The translations under genes and the position numbers were made by a program. 23,918 nt of DNA, taken from positions 1 to 23,918 of IMG/VR virus record IMGVR_UViG_3300025769_011139. One strand, 5' to 3'. Each line of letters opens with the position of its first letter. Position 1 is the first letter of the stretch. The DNA comes from a virus. A model generated the notes under the pieces. That model worked only from the letters and a program-made list of their open reading frames with translations. It made no database searches and was not told where the DNA came from. Positions 17,413 through 22,296 of the stretch are shown in pieces.

Positions 17413-17436
17413 AAAAAATCACGATGCTTCGTCGTG
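17413..17436 (-). terminator. Weak intrinsic terminator at the end of the antitoxin-like gene
   Basis: On the minus strand CACGA (17432-17436) pairs with TCGTG (17420-17424) across a 7-nt loop and is followed by ATTTTTT. It overlaps the last codons of the gene and ends right before the tRNA 5' end. The stem is only 5 bp, so it may terminate partially or serve in tRNA processing. Confidence 0.45.
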
Positions 17437-17592
17437 GTCTGTATAGATTCTCAGCAGTTCATCGTCTGCTGGAATCATAACTGCTGTGTGCCCATTTTCT
17501 TCGTTTCTGATCCCTATATGTTCACCATTCTCAACTCGTTCAATCAACGTGTCCCAGTTGTTTTGCCAGTTTTCCACAGAATAAATCTTCAT
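17419..17592 (-). CDS. Phd/YefM-like antitoxin (57 aa), solitary
   Basis: 57 aa. SVENWQNNWDTLIERVENGE (5-24) followed by HIGIRNEENGHTAVMIPADD (25-44) matches the Phd/YefM fold pattern: an N-terminal beta-strand, a helix with 'LI..V..GE', then I-x-I...NG..AVMIPA. In toxin-antitoxin modules such proteins bind operator DNA and neutralise a RelE/Doc-type toxin. Here both neighbours are tRNA genes and no toxin gene is visible, so it may counter host toxins or act only as a DNA-binding repressor. A late promoter box lies 8 nt upstream of the ATG, which leaves almost no leader. There is no ribosome-binding site. Confidence 0.7.
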   Translation of the reverse strand: MKIYSVENWQNNWDTLIERVENGEHIGIRNEENGHTAVMIPADDELLRIYTDHDEAS

Positions 17593-20056: not shown

Positions 20057-20128
20057 AGCGGGGTATCGGAATCGAACCGACGACATCTAACTTGGAAGGA
20101 TAGCGTTCTACCGCTGAACTAACCCCGC
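20057..20128 (-). tRNA. tRNA-Gly (anticodon TCC)
   Basis: 72 nt. Acceptor GCGGGGT/ACCCCGC, D arm GTTC...AAC, anticodon arm CTATC-CTTCCAA-GTTAG with TCC at 20094-20096, T arm GTCGG-TTCGATT-CCGAT, discriminator T. CCA not encoded. It begins about 11 nt after the -10 box of a sigma70-type promoter. Confidence 0.96.
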
Positions 20129-20138
20129 ATATAAGACA

Positions 20139-20167
20139 ATCATAACACATAAGTATTAGATTGTCAA
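20139..20167 (-). promoter_or_regulatory. Sigma70-type promoter TTGACA-17-TATGAT before tRNA-Gly
   Basis: TTGACA (20162-20167) and TATGAT (20139-20144) on the minus strand with a 17-nt spacer, starting 1 nt after the 3' end of tRNA-Ala. The start site falls near 20132, a few bases before tRNA-Gly. TATGATTGTCTTAT is shared exactly with the promoter at 20701-20729. Confidence 0.85.
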
Positions 20168-20168
20168 G

Positions 20169-20241
20169 TGGAGAATAGGAGACTCGAACTCCTGACACCC
20201 GCCTTGCAAAGGCGATGCTCTACCAACTGAGCTAATTCCCC
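20169..20241 (-). tRNA. tRNA-Ala (anticodon TGC)
   Basis: 73 nt. Acceptor GGGGAAT/ATTCTCC with one G-T pair, D arm GCTC...GC, anticodon arm TCGCC-TTTGCAA-GGCGG with TGC at 20206-20208, T arm AGGAG-TTCGAGT-CTCCT, discriminator A. Its first 10 nt are also the last codons and stop of the HNH gene. Confidence 0.96.
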
Positions 20242-20540
20242 TGGCGAAGTTCTACATGAACTTCTCTGTGACAATTGGCGCAAAGTATACAACACTTGTC
20301 CAATTCCATCAATACCTTTTCCCAATTCCATTTCCGCATATTGTTCCAAGATGCTTCTTTTTTACTTGGGTCAAGATGGTGAAATTCTAAAACATCTGGA
20401 TACTTATCATACCCACATCTTTCACATTTTCCACCTTTATATTCTATAGCATCAAGTTTTCTTTGACGCCATCTTTGAATACAATACTGATTAAAAGCAG
20501 ATTTCTCTTCTTCAGTCATCAGTTTATAAGGTTTACTCAT
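20232..20540 (-). CDS. HNH homing endonuclease (free-standing, 102 aa)
   Basis: 102 aa. CERCG (39-43) and CILCANCHREVH (84-95) supply two CxxC zinc-binding pairs. EFHHLDP (52-58) is the His-His of the HNH active site, with N66/N67 and H91/H95 completing the motif. The N-terminal basic helix (QRWRQRKLD) may bind DNA. The gene lies between tRNA-Arg and tRNA-Ala and its TAG is inside the tRNA-Ala gene, typical of a mobile endonuclease settled next to a tRNA. A late promoter and a start-proximal hairpin lie directly upstream. No ribosome-binding site is seen before the ATG at 20540. Confidence 0.87.
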   Translation of the reverse strand: MSKPYKLMTEEEKSAFNQYCIQRWRQRKLDAIEYKGGKCERCGYDKYPDVLEFHHLDPSKKEASWNNMRKWNWEKVLMELDKCCILCANCHREVHVELRQGN

Positions 20541-20542
20541 AA

Positions 20543-20565
20543 GGTTAGAATAAGTATTTCTAACC
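20543..20565 (-). promoter_or_regulatory. Hairpin next to the HNH start codon
   Basis: On the minus strand GGTTAGAA (20558-20565) pairs perfectly with TTCTAACC (20543-20550) over a 7-nt loop, ending 2 nt before the ATG. A long transcript from upstream would fold it and block ribosome access. A transcript begun at the late promoter (20566-20573) would start near 20560 and lack most of the 5' arm. Confidence 0.65.
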
Positions 20566-20573
20566 TATTTATA
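20566..20573 (-). promoter_or_regulatory. Late promoter TATAAATA for the HNH gene
   Basis: Exact late box on the minus strand, 7 nt beyond the 3' end of tRNA-Arg. Its last base abuts the hairpin at 20543-20565. Predicted start near 20560, leaving a leader of about 20 nt. Confidence 0.78.
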
Positions 20574-20580
20574 AACCAAG

Positions 20581-20653
20581 CAGGCAAGGTAGGACTCGAA
20601 CCTACAATCGGCAACTTAGAAGGTTGATGCATTATCCATTATGCTACTTGCCC
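20581..20653 (-). tRNA. tRNA-Arg (anticodon TCT)
   Basis: 73 nt. Acceptor GGGCAAG/CTTGCCT with a G-T first pair, D arm GCAT...ATGC, anticodon arm CAAC-CTTCTAA-GTTG with TCT at 20618-20620, T arm GTAGG-TTCGAGT-CCTAC, discriminator G. CCA not encoded. Confidence 0.95.
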
Positions 20654-20700
20654 AGGTGAGAGACTTACACAAGGTTTGGGCCCCTGTTGCTCATAAGACA

Positions 20701-20729
20701 ATCATACCATTTTATGATTTAATTGTCAA
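20701..20729 (-). promoter_or_regulatory. Sigma70-type promoter TTGACA-17-TATGAT before tRNA-Arg
   Basis: TTGACA (20724-20729) and TATGAT (20701-20706) on the minus strand, 17-nt spacer, starting 1 nt after the 3' end of tRNA-Tyr. The start site would be near 20694, giving a leader of about 40 nt before tRNA-Arg. It can also feed a long transcript through the HNH gene. Confidence 0.85.
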
Positions 20730-20730
20730 G

Positions 20731-21525: not shown

Positions 21526-21560
21526 ATAAAGTTATTAATATAATCCAAAAATACTTTCAT

Positions 21561-21568
21561 TATAAATA
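21561..21568 (+). promoter_or_regulatory. Late promoter TATAAATA for the GIY-YIG endonuclease
   Basis: Exact late box on the plus strand, the only one facing right in the window. With standard spacing transcription begins near 21574, so the ATG at that position would be leaderless and the ATG at 21592 would have an 18-nt leader. Confidence 0.78.
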
Positions 21569-21591
21569 GTTTTATGGTAGAAAGTATTTTT

Positions 21592-22296
21592 ATGTCTTGG
21601 AGATATAATGAATCGGAATTTGTAGAAGCTCCTAAGGGTATTGAGGGGTTTGTTTATCTCATAACAAATCTAACAAATGATAGAAAATATGTTGGCAAAA
21701 AATCTTTTTGGACAAGAAGAAAGGATAAGAAGACTGGTAGAAGAAAAACAAAGGAAAGTGATTGGAAAAAATATTTTGGATCTTGTGATGAATTAAATGA
21801 AGATGTAAAACTTCTTGGTGAAGATAAATTTTTGAGAGAAATACTCTACTTATGTCCCCATAAAAAATCAATGTCTTATTATGAAACTATGGAACAATTT
21901 AAAAGAGATGTTCTAATGACTGATGATTATTATAATACAAATATTGAAGGAAGATTTTTTGTGAGTGAGAGAGCAGGAATTTATGAAGTCGTTATGAGAA
22001 ACGATAAATTCCGTGATATGAGAAGTAAAAAGATGAAAGACAAATCATATAATCCAATGTATAAACCAGAAGTTCTTGAGAAGTTTAGTAAAATGTATTC
22101 TGGCGAAGGAAATCCTATGTATGGAAAAAAACTTACCGAAGAGCATAAAAAAGCACTCACAACATCAAAAAATGTAAGAGTGAGTGATGGGGAAAATACT
22201 TGGGAAAGTGTTGTATCTTACTTAAAAGAAAAGAAAATAGGACACCAAAAATACAAAAAACAATTAGAAGATGGATTAATCTTTATTGTTAATTGA
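21592..22296 (+). CDS. GIY-YIG homing endonuclease with NUMOD3 motif
   Basis: 234 aa from the ATG at 21592. An in-frame ATG at 21574 would fall at or before the predicted late transcription start. GFVYLI (19-24) and KYVGKK (32-37) are the GIY and YIG strands, Arg42/43 a candidate catalytic arginine, and E98 in YYETMEQ the likely metal-binding glutamate. KSYNPMYK (151-158) and GEGNPMYGKKLTEEHKKAL (171-189) are NUMOD3-type DNA-binding repeats. It is the only plus-strand gene and its 3' end overlaps the convergent 48-aa gene by 21 bp. It is free-standing: no intron boundaries are visible. Confidence 0.88.
   Translation: MSWRYNESEFVEAPKGIEGFVYLITNLTNDRKYVGKKSFWTRRKDKKTGRRKTKESDWKKYFGSCDELNEDVKLLGEDKFLREILYLCPHKKSMSYYETMEQFKRDVLMTDDYYNTNIEGRFFVSERAGIYEVVMRNDKFRDMRSKKMKDKSYNPMYKPEVLEKFSKMYSGEGNPMYGKKLTEEHKKALTTSKNVRVSDGENTWESVVSYLKEKKIGHQKYKKQLEDGLIFIVN

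Follow-up and report, generated by a model that had tools for sequence, protein, structure and literature searches.

A probable late-only translational switch, with a late promoter inside a start-codon hairpin, at an HNH endonuclease gene of a T4-like cyanophage

In phage T4, early and middle transcripts hide the translation start of the homing endonuclease I-TevI, and transcription from a late promoter on the 5' side yields an RNA without the 5' strand (PMC2988022, PMC3014915). The arrangement that we propose here for a cyanophage HNH gene resembles I-TevI in both respects, although I-TevI is a GIY-YIG enzyme encoded in the td intron, and sequestration of its Shine-Dalgarno sequence has been shown experimentally. 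Such logic is used, or thought to be used, by T4 I-TevI, I-TevII, I-TevIII, segB, and genes e, soc and 49, and by mobE of phage Aeh1 (PMC2988022, PMC3014915). In gene e (lysozyme), soc and gene 49, as in the proposed cyanophage case, an inhibitory helix sequesters the Shine-Dalgarno sequence and/or the AUG, and late promoters of gene e lie where the 5' strand is encoded (PMC3014915). Unlike the cyanophage gene, which is a candidate mobile element, these three are not mobile, and they belong to an Escherichia coli phage. A sequence-only reading of the present locus had cited I-TevI, MobE and lysozyme as T4 precedents, which is correct for I-TevI and lysozyme, but the hairpin-regulated MobE belongs to the Aeromonas phage Aeh1 (PMC2988022).

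Among these systems, T4 segB is closest to the cyanophage locus in setting, and Aeh1 mobE is closest in nuclease type. The segB gene encodes a GIY-YIG homing endonuclease and lies between tRNA-Arg and tRNA-Ile (PMC2988022). In common with the cyanophage gene, it is free-standing, lies beside tRNA-Arg in a tRNA cluster, has a predicted late promoter, and carries an RNA hairpin that covers its start region (PMC2988022). However, it differs in nuclease family and sequence, and the role of its hairpin is implied, not shown. The homing-endonuclease gene mobE, like the cyanophage gene, encodes an HNH enzyme and has a late promoter and a hairpin over the translation start (PMC2988022, PMC3014915), but it resides in nrdA and not in a tRNA cluster. 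We found no report of such a switch in cyanophages in the open-licence papers searched.

The DNA analysed here (hereafter the window) is a 23,918-nucleotide contig that is a fragment of a virus record. Similarity of its DNA to tRNA genes of Synechococcus phages fits an origin in a T4-like cyanophage, and so does the nrdB-type gene in the neighbourhood; in phage S-RSM4, tRNA genes occur with nrdB and a phrog_447-type gene in similar order. The HNH gene (20232..20540, minus strand) encodes 102 amino acids that match PHROG 2255, HNH endonuclease (E 1.9e-27), and that include conserved CxxC, EFHHLDP and CANCH sequences. The product has no Pfam match at 0.001 and no PDB relative. Directly upstream of the gene is a tRNA-Arg (UCU) predicted by ARAGORN (20580..20653, minus strand).

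The leader of the HNH gene reads CTTGGTTTATAAATAGGTTAGAAATACTTATTCTAACCTTATGAGTAAACC on the minus strand, as do all features of this locus. It carries a T4-type late promoter with the exact sequence TATAAATA (20566..20573), followed by a perfect 8-bp hairpin that consists of a 5' arm GGTTAGAA (20558..20565), a predicted 7-nt loop (20551..20557) and a 3' arm TTCTAACC (20543..20550). The dinucleotide TT separates the 3' arm from the ATG (20538..20540), and the arms amount to 9 bp instead of 8 if the A20566/T20542 pair is counted. Both the hairpin two nucleotides before the ATG and the late promoter abutting its upstream arm had been noted in the sequence-only reading, and both are confirmed. This hairpin occurs only once in the window. 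It is followed by TT-ATG and has no U-run, and was rejected as an intrinsic terminator. Late promoters of the form NATAAATA have been described in cyanophages (PMC2984593), and in T4 late promoters the TATA box begins at -13 (PMC2988020). With T4 spacing, the late transcript is predicted to start at 20560, which agrees with the earlier proposal of a start about 5 nt inside the 5' arm.

The predicted fold of the long RNA also contains an outer helix, in which GGUUUAU (20571..20577) pairs with GUAAACC in codons 2-5 (20530..20536). An AUA/UAU pairing between the 3' end of the late promoter and the start region includes two bases of the start codon, A and U. In this fold the late promoter lies entirely inside the 5' side of a two-tier hairpin, and the AUG is enclosed by the outer helix. 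The sequence-only reading had overlooked this pairing with the coding region, and the structure is larger than was described there. By inspection, no purine-rich Shine-Dalgarno sequence is present in 20560-20541 or in the leaders of relatives, and the model would have the AUG and codons 2-5 sequestered in its place. This absence and the pairing with codons 2-5 distinguish the HNH leader from the known switches, including segB, whose hairpin does not pair in this way with coding sequence, and mobE, whose hairpin hides the ribosome-binding site. By analogy, the element would represent, in a cyanophage, a variant of the switch of T4 I-TevI/segB and Aeh1 mobE.

An exact sigma70-type promoter (TTGACA, 17 nt, TATGAT), presumably early, is located upstream of the tRNA-Arg at 20701..20729, where it had been claimed. 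On the minus strand, a block resembling a promoter, TTGACAAT...TATGATTGTC, recurs in the spacers before tRNA-Gly (20128-20168) and tRNA-Arg (20700-20730). The two ends of the block make up an inverted repeat (GACAAT/ATTGTC), and both copies are possibly operator-like early promoters.

We consider it very probable that the HNH leader is a cis-acting, promoter-dependent translational switch that permits expression only late. According to this proposal, early RNA from the promoter at 20729-20701 would read through tRNA-Arg into the HNH gene. Only ~3 nt separate the 3' end of the tRNA from the hairpin foot that follows it, and this RNA would retain the whole two-tier hairpin whether or not the tRNA is excised. 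The inner helix, of 8-9 bp, would end beside the AUG, the outer helix would tie the leader to codons 2-5, and the enclosed start codon would keep ribosomes off the early RNA. Late in infection, a gp55-type polymerase would start at approximately 20560, directed by the TATAAATA in the 5' side. The resulting RNA would lack the whole outer 5' strand and five of the eight inner bases, leaving the AUG open, so that the endonuclease would be made only late.

Folding predictions are consistent with this scheme. The long RNA (20600-20500, 101 nt) folds at -20.5 kcal/mol (z -2.7), versus -5.3 kcal/mol (z -0.8) for the predicted late RNA (61 nt), and the hairpin-bearing leader folds well below shuffled sequences (z -2.7 to -4.0). 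Across 20 distinct leaders, opening of positions -12 to +8 has a median cost of 12.0 kcal/mol in the 100-nt leader and 3.9 kcal/mol in the late RNA, in which weak local structures are predicted around the AUG. The median is 14.4 kcal/mol in a ~41-nt leader that begins roughly at the tRNA 3' end. The cost is higher in the long RNA in all 20 leaders. The claim that a long transcript would hide the start region is thus upheld in prediction, with the whole two-tier hairpin kept and opening costs of ~12-14 versus ~4 kcal/mol.

Searches of viral contigs yielded 24 close HNH relatives (72-100% identity) and three more at 69-76%, whereas relatives in bacterial genomes are distant only (39-61%). In most viral relatives the gene directly follows tRNA-Arg(UCU), but it precedes this tRNA in L016 and L023/L024, and no tRNA is directly upstream in L105 and L106. 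Its presence beside tRNA-Arg(UCU) in differing tRNA-cluster contexts is suggestive of mobility through homing. A late-promoter-like box (TATAAATA, CTAAATA or CTATATA) adjoining a hairpin of the GATTAGAA...CTAATC type before the ATG is present in all relatives except L023/L024. The CTAAATA forms are close to the late-promoter box of Aeh1 mobE, which has a/gC at -13/-12 (PMC2988020). The 20 distinct leaders analysed among these contigs all contain the late promoter and inner hairpin, and in each the predicted late start lies at -18 to -21 relative to the ATG. Nearly all copies linked to tRNA-Arg are preceded by a sigma70-type promoter that is close to consensus and has a 17-nt spacer; no early-type promoter is recognisable in L107 or in the L023/L024 lineage, which likewise is without the late promoter and hairpin. 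All sequence-level predictions of the original late-only interpretation hold.

A scan for the inner-hairpin pattern elsewhere matched 18 contigs. Most of these carry the HNH genes already described, a second HNH type was also matched, and two matches are probably due to chance. The second type is a different HNH protein (119 aa) encoded after a tRNA (L214:2300-2480), whose leader carries a CTAAATAGATTAG...CTAATC element. A frameshifted copy of the gene for this type of protein has the same leader element (L212:60-200).

Evolutionary evidence for RNA pairing comes from the outer helix. Both of its strands change together in most of the 20 distinct leaders, giving pairs such as GGUUUA/UAAACC, GGUUUC/GAAACC, UUUCCC/GGGAAA and GCUUUUCC/GGGAAAGGC. 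We evaluated this pattern with an alignment-free test in which every 5' strand was paired with every coding start. True partners have a mean energy of -9.0 kcal/mol, versus -6.4 kcal/mol over all pairings, and permutations that do as well number 33 of 40320 at the class level (exact) and 0 of 100000 at the sequence level. L106 has no outer helix, and in L016 and L107 the helix is weak. When codons 1-4 were left out, the tree of the HNH gene had little resolution; both outer strands differ within its one strongly supported group (L017, L020 and L022). The inner helix is nearly invariant, with one double change (GG/CC in the window itself versus GA/TC) and, in one group of relatives, an A.G mismatch. 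Its double changes do not exceed those in shuffles and are not significant, so our claim of covariation concerns the outer helix alone. These matching changes on both sides of the hairpin make it very likely that the switch is real in this cyanophage.

The same window contains a second instance of the layout. A GIY-YIG homing-endonuclease gene (21592..22296, plus strand), recognised by PHROG matches and relatives, follows a perfect inverted repeat of 12 bp, with 5' arm AAAAATACTTTC (21547..21558), an exact TATAAATA in the loop (21561..21568), and 3' arm GAAAGTATTTTT (21580..21591) that ends directly at the ATG. The true start is probably this ATG at 21592 rather than that at 21574. The predicted late start, also at 21574, is beyond the 5' arm. 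For the protein read from 21574-22296, the best PHROG match is phrog_447, labelled NAD synthetase; this label looks wrong because the next matches are homing endonucleases. The leader is equivalent in layout to that of the HNH gene but unrelated in sequence, and the arrangement of hairpin and late promoter is kept in dozens of relatives among viral contigs. One pair of this hairpin occurs as C-G, U-A and U-G, and the others hardly vary. Long and late RNAs differ less in energy here than at the HNH gene, and the differences vary more.

Conceivably, the inverted repeat over the HNH late promoter is a DNA operator bound by the endonuclease for autorepression, which would make the RNA hairpin incidental. 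Autorepression of this kind has been shown for I-TevI, which acts on its late promoter through a site resembling its homing site (PMC2988022), and the inner arms of the HNH leader overlap the late promoter and are conserved in sequence beyond the needs of pairing. Moreover, the 3' arm in some relatives (TTCTAAG/TTCTAA) resembles the anticodon loop of tRNA-Arg(UCU), a short match that could be due to chance. We nevertheless regard an operator as quite unlikely to be the explanation, as it accounts neither for the joint change of the outer strands and codons 2-5 nor for the equal layout with different sequence at the GIY-YIG gene.

We likewise give little credence to the idea of constitutive damping, in which the hairpin would lower HNH expression or shield the 5' end after tRNA processing, with no timed switch. 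The position of the foot relative to the tRNA means that a processed RNA would begin with the hairpin, which favours this idea, but damping does not require that essentially every relative place its late promoter within the hairpin, or that the predicted late start be so constant.

How specific the layout is can be judged from scans for perfect hairpins of at least 8 bp that lie at most 4 nt from the ATG of an ORF of at least 50 aa, with ATAAATA within 60 nt. That a chance hairpin arose beside a chance TATAAATA in an AT-rich spacer and was kept by common descent, a reading already disfavoured, is extremely improbable: TATAAATA alone is about as frequent in the window as in shuffled sequence (4 found versus 2.7 expected, not significant by number), but the combination occurs twice, versus 0.03 times per shuffled window, and the outer helix carries compensating changes. 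An exact TATAAATA also stands at the start of two other genes in the window, and neither has such a hairpin. A Phd-like antitoxin gene (17422-17592, minus strand) has TATAAATA directly after tRNA-Pro, with a predicted late leader of ~3 nt.

The combination scan of two whole cyanophage genomes, with ORFs of at least 50 aa, revealed no further case beyond the two genes of the window. Of the genes annotated as endonucleases in S-RSM4 and S-PM2, F-CphI has TATAAATA near its start with no hairpin over the start codon, and the others show no clear instance of the layout. When 66 ORFs with late promoters were ranked by energy difference, the GIY-YIG gene was first and HNH eighth. In S-RSM4 and S-PM2, leader hairpins with similar differences also occur at some unrelated late genes (virion genes and genes of unknown function), so a moderate energy difference is not in itself specific. 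Large differences between long and late leaders are present at L197:33532 (-), L196:46856 (-) and L201:15200 (+), which are late-promoter genes of these two phages; genes with such differences include g25, a 63-aa protein and a RusA-like resolvase.

These observations suggest that the late-only control of selfish nucleases known from T4 extends to uncultured marine cyanophages, and they add evolutionary evidence for an RNA pairing that includes coding sequence. The switch would take a form that acts on the start codon itself, with no Shine-Dalgarno sequence. We see roughly even chances that start-codon-enclosing hairpins with embedded late promoters act as a portable cassette accompanying homing-endonuclease genes that are unrelated to one another in marine T4-like phages; lacking a Shine-Dalgarno sequence, such a leader would co-evolve with the first codons, and the coding sequence would be part of the switch. 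The presence of the same layout at two unrelated nuclease families in one phage suggests that early expression of homing nucleases is strongly selected against.
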